From positions 1-51,322 of the forward strand of contig NZ_QJSR01000012.1 in NCBI RefSeq assembly GCF_003217095.1: a stretch of DNA of 51,322 nt. The letters run 5' to 3'. This document shows, in pieces, positions 6,528-43,632 of this stretch (its first letter is position 1; the number at the start of each line of letters is the position of its first letter). The notes under the pieces were generated by a model. That model was not told the origin of the DNA and made no database searches. It worked only from the letters and a program-made list of their open reading frames with translations. This DNA is from Rhizobium sp. PP-CC-3A-592 (GTDB lineage: Bacteria > Pseudomonadota > Alphaproteobacteria > Rhizobiales > Rhizobiaceae). A program made the translations under genes and the position numbers.

Positions 6528-7562
6528 TCAAATGGTGGCTGCCAGCGCAGTGCTGTGGAGCAGCGGCTTCAGGTCGATGACGTTCTTGATGGTCTTGTGG
6601 GCCGCTGCGATCTTCAGCCATTCGGACGTCGCCTCCAGGTCGATCGCACCGGAATGCGAAGCGTTGGCATCGTCCATCCGCTTGATCACGCCCGGGTTTT
6701 CTTTCTCGATGGCGAAGAGGTCGACCTTGTCGTATTTCAGGGAGATCGCAGCCTTCTGTTCAGCACTGTAGCCATTGTAGCGCGAAGCGCCTTCACGGGC
6801 TGCGCGCACGAAGCGTTCGGCGCGCCCGGGCTCTTCCTTCAGCCAGGTCGATGTCGAAAAAAAACCGGCCGTCGTTGTTTTTTCCGGCACCTGCTGCCAA
6901 GGGCGGCCTTCCAGTATGATCACCCCGTACTGCTTCTCCCATTGCGCAACATTGGGGTCGGAGGCAATGGAGGCGTGGATCTGACCACCGGCCAGGGCCG
7001 CACCGACCGTATCGCGCTGATTGATGACGACAAACTCGACGTCCTCGGGCTTGATTCGGAAATGTTCGAGATACAGCGTGACGCGCAGCTTTGACTGGGC
7101 ATGCGCTGCGGTGCCGATCTTCTTTCCGCGAAGATCCGCAGGCACTTTCACGCCGCTTTCCTTGGAAGCAATGATGAAATCGGAATTGCCGCGACCATTG
7201 GCCGACTGCAGGAACGTCAGGTCGAAGCCGTTGTCGAGGGCGCCGACCCAGGCGAACAGGTCGGAATAGCCGACCTCGAGCGAACCGCCCACCGTGGCGG
7301 CAAGAATGTTAGGCCCACCGGCAAGCGTGACCAGTTCGATCTCAATGTTTTCCTTCTGGAAGAGTCCCTCCTCAATCGCGGTCTTGATGCCGGGAACGCT
7401 GCCGGCGGGTGCGCCCAGCCTGATGACGGTCCGGTCGCTTGCCAAAACGGCAGGCGCCGACAGGATACCAGCGTATGTGCCAAACCCCGCGGCAAGGCCA
7501 CCCGACAACAGTTTTAACCCGGCTCTGCGCGTAATCTTGGGCGCGGAAAAATTCTTCGACAT
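6528..7562 (-). CDS. ABC substrate-binding protein, SsuA/NMT1 family
   Basis: The 344-aa protein begins with a signal region containing a twin arginine (ITRRAGLKLLSGG) followed by a hydrophobic stretch to about residue 40 (APAVLAS), so it is exported, possibly by the Tat system. The mature part follows the aliphatic sulfonate / nitrate / taurine binding-protein pattern (IRLGAPAGSVPGIKTAIEEG, GGPNILAATVGGSLEVGYSD, LRGKKIGTA). It would capture the organosulfur substrate in the periplasm and hand it to the permease. It lies 13 bp downstream of the monooxygenase gene. Confidence 0.88.
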   Translation of the reverse strand: MSKNFSAPKITRRAGLKLLSGGLAAGFGTYAGILSAPAVLASDRTVIRLGAPAGSVPGIKTAIEEGLFQKENIEIELVTLAGGPNILAATVGGSLEVGYSDLFAWVGALDNGFDLTFLQSANGRGNSDFIIASKESGVKVPADLRGKKIGTAAHAQSKLRVTLYLEHFRIKPEDVEFVVINQRDTVGAALAGGQIHASIASDPNVAQWEKQYGVIILEGRPWQQVPEKTTTAGFFSTSTWLKEEPGRAERFVRAAREGASRYNGYSAEQKAAISLKYDKVDLFAIEKENPGVIKRMDDANASHSGAIDLEATSEWLKIAAAHKTIKNVIDLKPLLHSTALAATI

Positions 7563-24072: not shown

Positions 24073-24969
24073 ATGTCACGATCTGTTCTTACCGACCTCG
24101 ATGCCGTTCTGAGCATTGCCCGCCTGGGCTCGTTTCGGGCGGCCGCGCTCGAACTCAGCATGTCCACGACCGCACTGAGCAACGCCATCGCGAAGCTTGA
24201 GCAGCGCCTGGGCATTCGTCTGTTCAACCGCACAACGCGAAGCGTCTCGCTCACCGATGGGGGAACGACCTTTGTCGAGCGCATTGGACCGGCAATGACC
24301 GACATCCACGATGCCATGCTCGCGGCTCAATCGCTTCAGGATACTCCGACAGGCACATTGCGCATCAACGCATTTGCGTCGGCAGCCCGAGAGGTAATGG
24401 AACCGCTCATCCTGACGTTCATGCGGCGTTACCCCCAGGTGCATGTTGATCTGGTCACGGAAGGTAAACTCGTCGACATCGTCGCGGCAGGCTTCGACCT
24501 CGGCTTGAGGACCGTTGATCTCGTTCCCAACGACATGATCGCTCTGCCACTCGGTCTCGATCGCAGCAATGCCGTCGTCGCGTCGCCGGATTTCTTGCGC
24601 ACTCACGGCACGCCAACCGAACCAGCCGACCTTTATCGGTTCCGCTGCATTCGTGCCCGGCTCCCCAATAATGCCTTGTTTCGATGGCGGTTCGAGAAGG
24701 ACGGGAATGCCATGCAGATCGATGTACAAGGCTCGATCACGCTGGACGAGCCAAGTCTTGTGAGGATAGCGGCTCAGAACGGCGTTGGAATTGGATATGT
24801 CATGGAAGCGGATGTGCGCGATGACATTGCGGCTGGTCGATTGGTGCGCATTCTCGAGGACTGGACTCCTTCCCTGGCACCGCTCGCACTGTACTACCCT
24901 GGAAGAAAAAATCCACCGGCCGCCTTCAGTGCGTTCATTCAGGCTGCGCGAGAATTTTCCCATCGGTAG
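24073..24969 (+). CDS. LysR-family transcriptional regulator
   Basis: The 298-aa protein has the LysR DNA-binding head ([53 protein letters not shown]) and effector domain. It is divergent from the SnoaL-SDR operon, the likely target. The start ATG at 24073 follows AAAAGAGGGACA, a fair ribosome binding site. Confidence 0.9.
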
Positions 24970-25326: not shown

Positions 25327-25614
25327 CTACTCACCAACGACAATGAGGCCGTTGGAGGTTGCTGCCGTCTGTCGCATCGCTTTCAGCGGCTGATAATCCG
25401 GCGCGTCGTAAAAGTCACGAACGGCTTGACGGTTCGGAAACTCCAGCACGACAAGCCACGTCGGGGACCATTGTCCCTCAACGATTTCAGGATGAAGCTC
25501 CTTAACGAGTGGTCTGCCACCAAACCGCCCCGCCAAGGCGATCACTGCTCCCTCGTAATGGGTCATCGCGGGTAGATCATGGACAGTGAGATCGATCAGG
25601 ACTAGGGCGGTCAT
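25327..25614 (-). CDS. DUF1330 domain protein
   Basis: The 95-aa protein has the full DUF1330 pattern: a first strand, then ALAGRFGGRPLVKE, WLVVLEFPNRQAVRDFYDAP and DYQPLKAMRQ. These small dimeric alpha-beta barrel proteins have no settled function and are often found beside oxidoreductases. It lies 80 bp downstream of the MDR gene on the same strand and may be co-transcribed with it. Confidence 0.85.
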   Translation of the reverse strand: MTALVLIDLTVHDLPAMTHYEGAVIALAGRFGGRPLVKELHPEIVEGQWSPTWLVVLEFPNRQAVRDFYDAPDYQPLKAMRQTAATSNGLIVVGE

Positions 25615-25693: not shown

Positions 25694-26662
25694 TCAGGCA
25701 GCGGTGAAGTCGAGGATTACCTTGCCGCCGCGTTCGGCATGAATAGCCGCCTCGACAATAGCCGACGGCGGATAGACGCCGCTGATCGGGGTATGCAGGT
25801 CGCCACTGACGACAAGCGGCAGGACTTCTCTGACGGCGGCAGGTGCTGCTGCGGCCGAGTCCGGGTTGCCAAGGAAGAAGCCGTGGACGGTAACCTGTTT
25901 GAAGATTGGCGACCAGGCCGGGATCGACATCGTCGCGCTACCGAGAATGGAGTAAGCGACCACTGCCGCGCGAGGCGAGACGATGGTGGCTAGCAGTCCA
26001 ATCGCCTCACCGCCGATCGCATCAATTCCCAGGCCGATGCGGCCGCCGTTGACCGCTTGCTCCGCGTCAGCTGCGGTGTTGTCGCCGGCGACCAGTACCA
26101 CATCGGCACCCGCAGCCTTCAACTCATCGACAAGCTCGGAGCGGCGGACGATATTGAGCGTTTTCAGGCCGCGAGCCTTGGCCACACCGATCACCGCCCG
26201 GCCGACTCCCGAGTTGGCGGCATTCTGGACCACCCACTCTCCAGGCTCGAGACTGGTATATTCGCTAAGCAACAGTGCCGCCGTCGGCGGATTGATCCCC
26301 AGCATCGACAGCTGGTGCAGGTCGGCATCGGGCAGAGCAAACAAACCCTCGGCGGCAATGGTCACCCGTTCGCGCCATAGCCATGTGAAGATCGGAAGAA
26401 GCACGCGGTCACCGATAGAAAGATGGTTCACTTCCGTGCCCATACCGATCACGCGGCCGACGCCCTCGTTGCCCACGGGTCCTGGCGCAGATGGCAGAAC
26501 GGGGAAGCCGCCCTTGATGACATATAGGTCGTGGGGATTGAGCGGGGACGCCTCGAGCTGAACGAGCACCTCATTCGGGCCAGGAGCTGCTGGCTCAGGG
26601 AAGTCGGCGAAGCGCAACACGTTACGGGGCTCGCCGAAGGCGGAAATCTGGATAGCTTTCAT
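25694..26662 (-). CDS. Zinc-independent MDR-family oxidoreductase (quinone/enoyl reductase-like)
   Basis: The 322-aa protein starts at the ATG at 26662 with GGAG six bases upstream. It has the GroES-like N-terminal domain (PAAPGPNEVLVQLEASPLNP, GNEGVGRVIGMG) and a Rossmann domain (NAANSGVGRAVIGVAKARG). Zinc-ligand residues of alcohol dehydrogenases are absent, so it belongs with quinone reductase and 2-enoyl thioester reductase-like enzymes that use NAD(P)H. A perfect 28-bp palindrome at 26703-26730 lies 40 bp upstream of its start. This site and similar ones nearby mark it as part of the TetR-controlled cluster. Confidence 0.88.
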   Translation of the reverse strand: MKAIQISAFGEPRNVLRFADFPEPAAPGPNEVLVQLEASPLNPHDLYVIKGGFPVLPSAPGPVGNEGVGRVIGMGTEVNHLSIGDRVLLPIFTWLWRERVTIAAEGLFALPDADLHQLSMLGINPPTAALLLSEYTSLEPGEWVVQNAANSGVGRAVIGVAKARGLKTLNIVRRSELVDELKAAGADVVLVAGDNTAADAEQAVNGGRIGLGIDAIGGEAIGLLATIVSPRAAVVAYSILGSATMSIPAWSPIFKQVTVHGFFLGNPDSAAAAPAAVREVLPLVVSGDLHTPISGVYPPSAIVEAAIHAERGGKVILDFTAA

Positions 26663-26702
26663 CAGGGTCTCCTTGGTCATACGGTCAGTCGTTATCGAAG
26701 CA

Positions 26703-26730
26703 TATTTATGGAGTAATTACTCCATAAATA
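26703..26730. promoter_or_regulatory. TetR operator candidate, site 1 (perfect 28-bp palindrome)
   Basis: The core TGGAGTAATTACTCCA (26709-26724) is extended on both sides by matching AT-rich arms, making 28 bp of perfect dyad. It lies between the MDR start (26662) and the tetR gene and could repress both. It is the best copy of a palindrome found six times between 26.7 and 28.2 kb. Confidence 0.75.
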
Positions 26731-26768
26731 GTCCATGAACCGCTATCGTGCTTCAGTCAACATAAAAG

Positions 26769-26784
26769 TGGAGCTATCGCTACA
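26769..26784. promoter_or_regulatory. TetR operator candidate, site 2
   Basis: TGGAGCTATCGCTACA keeps six of eight dyad pairs. It is 60 bp from site 1 and about 70 bp upstream of the tetR start, so it may serve autoregulation. Confidence 0.55.
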
Positions 26785-26852
26785 ATTATGTTAGGTGCGG
26801 TGCAGACGGAGAGACCACGCAGTTCATGCTGACAGCGACGAAGGGAATAACA

Positions 26853-27482
26853 ATGGTGATGAAGGGCGAGGGCCAAGCGCCGAGAGCGCGAGGACGGCCG
26901 CGGCTGTTCGACCGGACAGCGGCGCTTGACCGGGCAATGCGCGTGTTTTGGGACAGAGGGTACGAGGGAGCGACCTTCGACGAACTGATCGCAGTCATGG
27001 GCCTCAACCCTTCAAGCTTCTATAATGCCTTTGGCAGCAAGGAAGCCCTCTACCGGGAAGCGGTCGGTGCGTATCTCACCGGACCAGGCGGCTTCTTCCT
27101 CAAGGCTTTGGCCGGGGCGGGCTCAACTCAGGATGCGTTCGCGCGGCTGATGATGGCTACGGCGGCCGCCTACACTGACGATGTGAGTCCTGCTGGCTGC
27201 ATGATCTCTCTAGCCGGACTACACGATGCCCCGGACCGCGCAGATTTGCGAGACTTCATGCGTGAGGTTAGAGAGAGGTCGCGCACATTGATGATAGAGC
27301 GACTGAACGAGGGTGTCCGAAACGGCGACCTGTCAGAAAAGATTGACGTCGCCCAGATCGCCGAGTTTTTCGAAACAGTGTCGAGAGGCATGGCAGTCCG
27401 CGCGCGTGACGGCGCCGATCGCGAGACGCTTGAAAAGATCGGCGTCATGGCGCTCCAGGCTTGGCCGGGCGTGCGCGCCTAG
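26853..27482 (+). CDS. TetR/AcrR-family regulator of the MDR-tautomerase cluster
   Basis: The protein is 209 aa from the ATG at 26853 (AAGGGAA upstream; ATGs at 26826 and 26859 are alternatives). It has the basic lead GRPRLFDRTAALDRAMRVFW, then a TetR helix-turn-helix (YEGATFDELIAVMGLNPSSF, YNAFGSKEALY). The C-terminal region (PAGCMISLAGLHDAP) resembles the reactive-electrophile or solvent-responsive members. A cysteine in SPAGCMI is in the position used for sensing in some relatives, which is only a suggestion. It lies inside a set of six TGGAG-n6-CTCCA palindromes that front its own gene and three neighbours, so it is the probable repressor of the whole cluster. Confidence 0.9.
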   Translation: MVMKGEGQAPRARGRPRLFDRTAALDRAMRVFWDRGYEGATFDELIAVMGLNPSSFYNAFGSKEALYREAVGAYLTGPGGFFLKALAGAGSTQDAFARLMMATAAAYTDDVSPAGCMISLAGLHDAPDRADLRDFMREVRERSRTLMIERLNEGVRNGDLSEKIDVAQIAEFFETVSRGMAVRARDGADRETLEKIGVMALQAWPGVRA

Positions 27483-27874
27483 TCGTCGCCCTTGTCAACC
27501 GCACTTAAACCTCGCCCGAACGAAAAATTCTCCGAGGGCAATGGAATGAGGGTCACGAACACATCGTCGGGCCTGATGCCGACATCGTCGTGGAGTCGCC
27601 CGACGATCTCCTTTAGCAGCACTCGCTTCTGAGACATCGGACGCGACGCCGGGATGTGAACGGTGATGATGATCGCACCCGCAGAGCGTTCCACATTTCC
27701 ATAGGTAGGATGCAGAAAGATGTAGCCTTCGGCGTGCTCGTTGATCACGACGAACTTATCTTCCGGGGGCAGCTCAAAGCTGTCCCGAAGAGAGTGTGCG
27801 AGCGATTCCGCAATTGCCTTGCGCTGATCCAGAGAAAACAGATCCTTGGGGACGTGAACGTTGAAAAATGGCAT
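27479..27874 (-). CDS. Tautomerase (4-oxalocrotonate tautomerase/MIF-like) family protein
   Basis: The 131-aa protein starts at the ATG at 27874 (GAGGATCATGTC upstream) with the mature N-terminus Pro-Phe-Phe; Pro2 would be the catalytic base of the tautomerase superfamily. Other landmarks are LDQRKAIAESLAHSL and GAIIITVHIPASRPMSQKRV. It is longer than 4-OT (62 aa) and fits the fused, double-unit type. Such enzymes act on enol/keto and unsaturated acids or dehalogenate. Its stop lies inside the end of the convergent tetR gene by 4 bp, and a palindrome at 27919 lies in its promoter. Confidence 0.85.
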   Translation of the reverse strand: MPFFNVHVPKDLFSLDQRKAIAESLAHSLRDSFELPPEDKFVVINEHAEGYIFLHPTYGNVERSAGAIIITVHIPASRPMSQKRVLLKEIVGRLHDDVGIRPDDVFVTLIPLPSENFSFGRGLSAVDKGDD

Positions 27875-27918
27875 GACATGATCCTCATTCGTGGCATTCA
27901 CAGGGCGTGACGCATAAC

Positions 27919-27934
27919 TGGAGTTATTACTCCC
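27919..27934. promoter_or_regulatory. TetR operator candidate, site 3
   Basis: TGGAGTTATTACTCCC differs from the site 1 core at two of 16 positions. It lies 45 bp upstream of the tautomerase start. Confidence 0.6.
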
Positions 27935-27975
27935 AAATTGCTTTGCTTGCGATTTGCCTGCGCGTCAACAGTTTA

Positions 27976-27991
27976 TGGAGCCATGCCTCCA
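27976..27991. promoter_or_regulatory. TetR operator candidate, site 4
   Basis: TGGAGCCATGCCTCCA has seven of eight dyad pairs and is extended by TTTA on the left and GAAA on the right. It is 57 bp from site 3. Confidence 0.6.
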
Positions 27992-28093
27992 GAAATTTCT
28001 GGCAAGAGCCCTTCTGTCGGAAATCCATATGACAGTTGCAGCAATCGGTCACAGCGCTGTGAGGCGTTAGGCGCGGAAAACGGCTCCGCGGCA

Positions 28094-28137
28094 CCGTCAA
28101 CACAATATGGAGCAATTCCTCCATATTGTGTTGACGG
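28094..28137. promoter_or_regulatory. TetR operator candidate, site 5, within a 44-bp inverted repeat
   Basis: The core TGGAGCAATTCCTCCA (28108-28123) lies at the centre of a 44-bp inverted repeat with perfect 19-bp arms beginning CCGTCAACAC and ending GTGTTGACGG. Only the pair 28113/28118 in the centre does not match. It is 56 bp from site 6 and upstream of the MDR gene at 28205. The long arms could also form a cruciform or an RNA hairpin. Confidence 0.65.
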
Positions 28138-28163
28138 CAGTCTAAACGTCTCTTAGTGCTATT

Positions 28164-28179
28164 TGGAGCAATCGCTCCT
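28164..28179. promoter_or_regulatory. TetR operator candidate, site 6
   Basis: TGGAGCAATCGCTCCT keeps six of eight dyad pairs. It ends 25 bp before the MDR start at 28205, a position where a bound repressor would block RNA polymerase. Confidence 0.6.
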
Positions 28180-28204: not shown

Positions 28205-29194
28205 ATGACCAGAGTAGTTAGAATTCACGAGTATGGCGACGCCAGTGTACTCAGGATCGATGACGTGGATGTCCCGGCGCCAGCGGCCGACGAGGTTCAG
28301 ATCAAGGTCAAGGCAATTGGGATCAACCGTGCGGAGGTCATGTTCCGAAATCACGCCTACCTGCAGGATGCACACTTTCCAAGCCGTCTTGGCTACGAAG
28401 CTTCGGGCGTCATCGGAACCGTCGGTGCATCGGTGAAAGGTTTTGCCATTGGAGACGTGGTCAGCGTTGTTCCCTCGCAGGACATAACTAACGGCGGAAC
28501 CTACGGCGAGCTGGTCAACGTGCAATCGCGCTTGGTCGTCAAACATCCGGAGAACTTGTCTTTCGAGGTCGGCGCAGCGGTTTGGATGGCATATGTTACG
28601 GCGTGGGGCGGCCTGATCGAGCAGGCAAAGCTTTCTCACGGAGAGGCTGTCATCATATCCGCAGCGTCAAGCAGTGTCGGCATCGCGGCGTTCCAGATCG
28701 CTAAAATTGTAGGCGCGACCGTCATTGCGACGACTCGAACCAGCGCTAAGCGCCAAGCCCTTATTGATGCTGGCGCCGACTACGTCGTTGCGACGGAAGA
28801 AGAAGACCTTGTTGCTAGGGTTCTTGAAATCACGAATGGCATCGGCGCTCGGGTCGTGTTCGATCCGGTAGGCGGACCTTCGTTCGGGCCTTTGACGGCC
28901 GCCATGGCGCGGGGTGGCATCCTGCTTGAATATGGTGTTCTCAGCGCTGAGCCAACGCCATTCCCGCTCCTTACAGTTCTGAGCAAAAGCCTGACATTGA
29001 AGGGCTACCTCTACACCGAAGTCGTGTCGGACGATGCGGTCCTCGAACGCGCCAAGACTTTCATCAAAGACGGTTTGGTGTCGGGCGCGCTTAGGCCCCT
29101 GATCGCACGTACGTTCGCCTTCGACGACATCCAAGACGCTCATCGTTTTTTGGAATCCAACGAGCAAATCGGTAAGGTCGTCGTCACACTCTAA
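28205..29194 (+). CDS. Zinc-dependent-like MDR family quinone oxidoreductase
   Basis: The 329-aa protein starts at the ATG at 28205 (GGAGATATTTG upstream). It has the quinone oxidoreductase N-terminus (VVRIHEYGDASVLRIDDVDV), GYEASGVIGTVG, and a Rossmann motif in AASSSVGIAAFQIAKIVGA, and it ends IGKVVVTL. Zinc-ligand positions are not conserved, in spite of the common database label for this family; it is best read as an NADPH:quinone or enone reductase. Two palindromes (sites 5 and 6) lie directly upstream. Confidence 0.9.
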   Translation: MTRVVRIHEYGDASVLRIDDVDVPAPAADEVQIKVKAIGINRAEVMFRNHAYLQDAHFPSRLGYEASGVIGTVGASVKGFAIGDVVSVVPSQDITNGGTYGELVNVQSRLVVKHPENLSFEVGAAVWMAYVTAWGGLIEQAKLSHGEAVIISAASSSVGIAAFQIAKIVGATVIATTRTSAKRQALIDAGADYVVATEEEDLVARVLEITNGIGARVVFDPVGGPSFGPLTAAMARGGILLEYGVLSAEPTPFPLLTVLSKSLTLKGYLYTEVVSDDAVLERAKTFIKDGLVSGALRPLIARTFAFDDIQDAHRFLESNEQIGKVVVTL

Positions 29195-42739: not shown

Positions 42740-43632
42740 CTAGGCGCGCTCCCGGAGAGCCGCGAGCACTATGGAGAAGGCTGCCGAGGGCTGCCTTCTC
42801 GACGGATAGTAAAGGTGATATCCCGGATAGTAGGGACAGTAGTCCCCCAGCACCTGATCCAGCCGGCCGTCCCTCAGATCAGCGAGAACCAGCCCCTCTG
42901 GCAGGAACGCGATCCCGTAACCGTCGCGGGCCATCTGCAGGATCTGATGGATGCCGTTGGACGTCATCTGGCCATCGACACGGACGTTAACGTTCTGCCC
43001 GTCCTTTTCAAATTCCCAGGCATAAAGCCCGCCCTTGGTGGGAAGTCGTAGATTGATGCAGTCGTGCCCTGTCAGATCGAGTGGTGACGCAGGTGCTTTT
43101 CGCTTCTCAAAATATTTGGGTGCCCCAACAGCGACCATCCTTTGATCGCCGCTGATCCGCGCCGCAATCATTCCCGGTGAAACGATCTCGCCTAGCCTGA
43201 CACGGCATCAAAACGCTCGGCAACGATATCCGTCAGGCCATAGTCCACGATGAGTTCGACTTTGATCTCGGGATAGTGCTGGAGAATTTGTCGTAGCTTG
43301 GGCCACAAGACATGATCTATGGCGAAATCATCCGCGGTGATGCGGATCGTGCCTGCCGGCTTCCCCCGTGAATCGCTGAGCAAAACAAGCTCTTGTTCTA
43401 TCTCCAGCAATCGTGGCGCCATTGTCTCAAGAAGTCGCTCGCCCTCCGGTGTTGGCGCTACGCTACGGGTGGTTCTTGTGAGAAGGCGCAAGCCGAGCCT
43501 CTCCTCAAGTCCTCGGATCGAGTGGCTCAATCCGGATTGGGAGATGCCAAGCTGTGCCGCAGCCTTCGTGAAGCTGCGCTCGCGAGCGACCACCATGAAC
43601 GCCATCAAGTCGGTCACGTTTTCTCTTAGCAT
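42740..43632 (-). pseudogene. LysR-family regulator broken by a single-base deletion
   Basis: The DNA-binding part reads normally from 43632 (VVARERSFTKAAAQLGISQS, GLSHSIRGLEERLGLRLLTR) to RFDAVSG and a stop at about 43192. The effector part continues in another frame as VRLGEIVSPGMIAARISGDQ and ends at 42740. Inserting one G in GATGCCGTGTCAGG (near 43205) would restore F-D-A-G-V-R-L-G-E, exactly as in the intact paralogue at 36388. So this is a one-base frameshift, either a true pseudogene or a base error. It is divergent from the IS5-split cupin gene, which was probably its target. Confidence 0.85.

Follow-up and report, generated by a model that had tools for sequence, protein, structure and literature searches.

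Six copies of one palindrome, with the core TGGAG-N6-CTCCA, stand in the intergenic DNA around a tetR gene in the soil bacterium Rhizobium sp. PP-CC-3A-592. Which protein do they serve, and what does their regular arrangement do? The window, i.e. the whole stretch of DNA that was analysed, comprises 51,322 nt (assembly GCF_003217095.1, contig NZ_QJSR01000012.1, positions 1-51,322, forward strand). A preceding sequence-only reading had located the six copies, all in intergenic DNA, and had given the spacing within each pair as about 56-60 bp. Both statements are confirmed on the sequence, with measured spacings of 60, 57 and 56 bp. The genes, sites and putative promoter elements are as follows (sites are given without strand):

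25327..25614, minus strand: DUF1330 gene, 79 bp behind MDR1
25694..26662, minus strand: MDR1, zinc-less-type reductase of the MDR superfamily; alternative start possible at 26680
26709..26724: putative operator site 1, exact core; covers the expected MDR1 transcription start
26755..26760, minus strand: putative -35 of MDR1, TTGACT, from sequence layout
26769..26784: putative operator site 2, one mismatch (CTACA); the MDR1 -35 starts 8 bp downstream
26853..27482, plus strand: tetR, putative CifR-like repressor of 209 aa with Cys116; from Pfam, structure-sequence match and fold search
27479..27874, minus strand: tautomerase-superfamily gene, Pro after the initiator Met
27919..27934: putative operator site 3, one mismatch (CTCCC); covers the expected tautomerase transcription start
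27963..27968, minus strand: putative -35 of the tautomerase gene, TTGACG, from sequence layout
27976..27991: putative operator site 4, exact core; the tautomerase -35 starts 7 bp downstream
28108..28123: putative operator site 5, exact core within a palindrome of 44 bp; the MDR2 -35 starts 7 bp downstream
28131..28136, plus strand: putative -35 of MDR2, TTGACG, from sequence layout
28164..28179: putative operator site 6, one mismatch (CTCCT); covers the expected MDR2 transcription start
28205..29194, plus strand: MDR2, quinone-oxidoreductase-like

The intact core had been assigned to all six copies. It is present at 26709, 27976 and 28108, whereas the other half of the sites, at 26769, 27919 and 28164, carry one mismatch each. 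Site 1 extends to a perfect palindrome of 28 bp (26703-26730) and site 5 to one of 44 bp at 95% (28094-28137). Three exact cores in the window compare with 0.07 expected and with a maximum of 1 in 100 shuffles. Across the whole 5.12-Mb genome, the exact core is found at 11 places, 3 of them in this cluster, versus 11 in the reversed control; with an NNATNN middle and up to one mismatch there are 13 places, 6 of them in this cluster, versus 9. TGGAG-N6-CTCCA itself is at genome background, and what stands out is its clustering, six sites in 1.5 kb of intergenic DNA.

The sequence-only reading had proposed a genome-wide motif scan as a way to further members. For this, a sequence-only operator model of 26 positions was built from 29 sites, the window's six included in training, and 150 of 989 first-look candidates were scored in the own genome. 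Counted on both strands, 11 matches were obtained; 10 of them fall on the six sites, and the remaining one lies within rpsS. The scores of the six sites prove little, being those of training sites; the point is the absence of others, no further regulon member being found in the own genome among the candidates scored. Off-cluster places matching the model number one in G003 and two in G004. Eight exact cores lie outside the cluster, and the six that were inspected (C6 and C11 were left out) each fall inside an open frame. All 11 off-cluster places inspected lie inside a frame of 100 codons or more, but in a GC-rich genome this says little. The site of locus L005 is situated just past a recJ-like gene, with no convincing gene beside it. 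Among the literature matches listed, no title names a TGGAG-N6-CTCCA operator or this gene set.

Several features go beyond the sequence-only reading: the relationship to CifR, the DUF1330 gene that follows MDR1, the TTGAC elements and the bracketing of a putative promoter by each operator pair, which is a new observation here. In the direction of transcription, the order operator, 7-8 bp, TTGAC, 27-30 bp, operator is found at 18/18 promoters in six loci. When the window stretches were shuffled by mononucleotide, none of 20000 shuffles had TTGAC at the layout offset in all three promoters. A usual 17-bp spacer would put the transcription start in or beside the downstream operator. The -10 elements of the three proposed window promoters are poor, and a generic promoter scan of the window picked none of them. 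In the window, the CTACA of site 2 creates the sequence TACAAT, a possible -10 box of tetR, with a weak scan match (2 found vs 0.8 expected). Each arm of the 28094-28137 palindrome bears a TTGAC that points outward (GTCAAC at 28096, GTTGAC at 28130); the left box, which might be an extra leftward promoter, is kept in the related loci L011, L013 and L015 and not in L014.

The pair spacing had previously been taken as a sign of cooperative repression. On this view the TetR protein would bind both sites, and the pairs would act by cooperative contact or a short loop. Pairs are indeed 56-60 bp apart in six loci and 59 bp apart in Gluconobacter, which would suit it. However, the distance is not constant: pairs differ by 4 bp (5.3-5.7 turns at 10.5 bp per turn), and in Chelatococcus it is 63 bp, whereas the operator-TTGAC distance is nearly fixed at 7-8 bp. 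To accommodate one promoter core, the two operators of a pair must stand 56-60 bp apart, so that promoter length explains the spacing; cooperativity is not to be read from it, and we regard this mode of action as improbable.

The gene block is present in five other loci with TetR identity of 83-93%: the rhizobial L011, L012, L013 and L015, and L014 of Methylobacterium sp. J-078. In 3/5 of them (L011, L013, L015) all six sites are found with at most one mismatch. L012, from Rhizobium sp. Leaf306, lacks the segment that runs from site 4 to site 5, about 134 bp, and has instead a hybrid site (7125-7140), whose left flank is that of site 4 and whose right flank is that of site 5; this hybrid operator stands between two outward-facing TTGAC boxes and serves both putative promoters. 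Site 2 reads CTACA in all five rhizobial copies, the window included, and its right half is lost in L014 (three mismatches). Only five of the 14 window genes that were compared, namely DUF1330, MDR1, tetR, tautomerase and MDR2, are directly represented in L014, and the block has thus been kept or moved as a unit. Window and L014 agree at 57/59 aligned bases of the operator core, 17/36 of the spacers, 17/18 of the -35 boxes and 223/402 other intergenic bases (core against the rest, Fisher p 7e-12). Close to the left window end, an IS66-family transposase gene is located at 943-2472.

The base conservation bears on the idea that the palindromes are not operators but structure elements of DNA or RNA, or else repeats of mobile type. 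The length of the palindromes at sites 1 and 5, 28 and 44 bp, would suit it. Against it, half sites are kept and spacers are not, the sole own-genome model match off the six sites is the one inside rpsS, and the upstream sites precede the -35 and hence lie outside that transcript; we consider it the most improbable of the explanations weighed here.

The product of tetR matches PF00440 (TetR_N helix-turn-helix) with E 1.8e-11, above the cut-off, and also TetR_C_13. Palindromic sites adjoin tetR itself and a divergent target gene; according to statements in PMC3511530, TetR regulators less than 200 bp from a divergent gene usually repress that gene. The closest solved sequence is CifR, about 44% identical (E 3e-44), and CifR structures occupy Foldseek ranks 1-6 with TM-scores to the query of 0.45-0.63, for a model of modest quality (mean pLDDT 71). 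Cys116 is invariant in 8/8 aligned proteins and aligns with Cys107 of CifR, changed to serine in 6nsm. Because a Pfam scan of 30 window proteins revealed no linked epoxide hydrolase (cif) gene, we call the protein CifR-like, not CifR. PMC4204640 concerns a different TetR target, the pqi genes, and was set aside.

We propose that dimers of this TetR protein bind the six palindromes, two of which would bracket each of three promoters, those of MDR1-DUF1330, the tautomerase gene and MDR2. With one site 7-8 bp upstream of the -35 and the other over the expected start, bound repressor would exclude RNA polymerase at both ends. The tetR gene, which faces away from MDR1 at a distance of about 190 bp, shares the first site pair and is probably autoregulated. 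That the TetR protein binds the six sites and controls the three promoters has, in our estimate, a probability of roughly 0.8, based on the layout, conservation and homology of the sequences. Speaking against it are the mismatches in half of the window sites, the poor -10 elements and their absence from the generic scan, the damaged site 2 of the Methylobacterium copy, and the rarity of exact sites at the distant homologues described below.

Two other assignments start from the same sites. In the first, another regulator would bind them, for example the LysR-type protein encoded at 24073, tetR being a mere neighbour. The LysR gene is only 1.7 kb off, and two sites per promoter are common among LysR-type proteins. 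Yet the Methylobacterium locus (12.6 kb), in which the sites persist, contains no match to this gene at E 1e-10, and the sites of Gluconobacter and Chelatococcus stand directly before the tetR homologue; this assignment is very unlikely. Another LysR-type frame of the window (43195-43632) has only 146 aa and is apparently truncated, its match being confined to the beginning of the substrate domain. In the second, TetR would be an activator, or an activator at one promoter and a repressor at the others. Some regulators activate from a position just above the -35, where the upstream sites are, and the poor -10 elements would suit this view too. On the other hand, the downstream site covers the expected start, and the nearest studied relative, CifR, is described as a repressor in PMC8244358. 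We give an activator slightly less credence still than the LysR-type protein.

Of more distant homologues, 47 loci (20 + 8 + 19; 45 distinct, L067 being equal to L029 and L074 to L020) were scanned upstream of the gene. Most have no exact TGGAG site; such sites are found in three of them: L041 and L044, near-identical copies from Gluconobacter, and L042 from Chelatococcus. Here the tetR homologues are 46%, 46% and 43% identical, respectively; the exact sites lie directly before them, and the layout is similar. In the Gluconobacter copies it consists of a one-mismatch operator, 7 bp, TTGAAA, 30 bp and the exact operator, toward a divergent SDR gene; in Chelatococcus, of a three-mismatch operator, 7 bp, TTGACG, 34 bp and the exact operator, toward a divergent MFS gene. 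Left uncounted were two-mismatch matches in L020, L022, L023, L031 and L037, and a one-mismatch match at -435 in L071. All three loci with exact sites have an SS(F/L)Y recognition helix. L029 has a similar one, SSIY, yet no exact site upstream; the helices readable in other distant loci, in a survey that omits five loci of the 19-locus set, are mostly of PSLYAAF or KSLYAAF type. The view of a compact, self-contained TetR regulon is supported by these comparisons, the sites being conserved with the gene block and matching sites being found beside homologous tetR genes in two other genera.

A strict two-site tandem pattern, by which looser pairs would be missed, occurs in 1/385 class genomes, which is the own genome, and there only as pair 5-6. 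A tetR match of E 1e-50 or better was obtained in 3/394 family genomes, the own one counted. In the plasmid collection, the tetR region is not covered to 80% by any DNA match, and the best tetR relative there reaches 46%. The own genome has a second CifR-like TetR gene on contig C15 (L023), of 36% identity. The palindrome TGGATCGGACGATCCA lies 94 bp upstream of this gene, which adjoins an MFS gene and a glyoxalase-family gene. The window segment 35035-35519 is 94% identical over 486 bp to that glyoxalase-family gene, a likeness that speaks of recent duplication or transfer.

As to the genes under the proposed control, MDR1 is closest to mitochondrial enoyl thioester reductases and MDR2 to quinone oxidoreductases. 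The DUF1330 gene occupies the same place in the Methylobacterium copy, where it is 51% identical, and is probably co-transcribed with MDR1 as an operon. No site precedes the third MDR gene (29465), which was left out of the set. The best solved match of the tautomerase is malonate semialdehyde decarboxylase (2aaj, E 8e-14), an enzyme whose key residues are Pro-1, an Asp and two Arg. The Pro after Met, an Asp and one Arg are aligned in the window protein; the other catalytic arginine aligns with Ala, in which the two differ. From the enzyme families, our guess is that the block enzymes clear an unsaturated carbonyl or similar compound.

What would lift repression is suggested by the relatives of the regulator. 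Certain epoxides make CifR release DNA, as reported in PMC8244358. Homology to CifR and the conserved cysteine make electrophile sensing plausible for the window protein: the repressor would leave its operators on contact with an electrophile, thiol-reactive or of another kind, for which Cys116 may be the target. The inducing compound would then be cleared by the two reductases and the tautomerase. The inducer is the least certain part of this reading, and we put the odds of thiol or electrophile sensing somewhat below even.

Of known systems, CifR-cif of Pseudomonas aeruginosa (6nsm, 6nsn, 6nsr) is the best match to the window TetR in sequence and fold, and shares with it the TetR-type repressor, the conserved cysteine and the divergent target. 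The CifR crystals contain operator DNA of palindromic length, and a 2012 title by Ballok et al. reportedly speaks of two CifR binding sites. The window differs in having no epoxide hydrolase among the 30 proteins scanned, in its targets (MDR reductases and a tautomerase at three promoters) and in the recognition helix, SSFYNAF against PSLYAAF of CifR. NemR of Escherichia coli is a cysteine electrophile sensor of TetR fold controlling detoxifying enzymes; its structure 4yze is at rank 25 of the fold search with 22% identity to the window TetR, and its targets and operator are other than those of the window. The Tn10-type TetR-tetA system likewise has a divergent gene with two palindromic operators between (PMC3511530). 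Its operators are given as 11 bp apart in PMC9736018, while those of the window are 40-44 bp apart, around the -35, and its target is an efflux pump, unlike the window targets.

A more far-reaching picture would be that of a rare, transferred, self-contained detoxification module that has an operator class of its own, in which TGGAG-N6-CTCCA pairs of a CifR-like repressor with an SS(F/L)Y helix clamp the -35 and Cys116 senses a not-yet-described electrophile destroyed by the reductases and the tautomerase. Taken as a whole, we hold it to be doubtful. The proposed switch is tidy but of a familiar kind, and otherwise presents routine regulatory biology. Its regularly clamped promoters could be of use in a compact biosensor. 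For the family, the finding offers a clean candidate operator for a branch of CifR-like repressors, and it would place the two MDR reductases, the tautomerase-superfamily protein and the DUF1330 protein in a single response.
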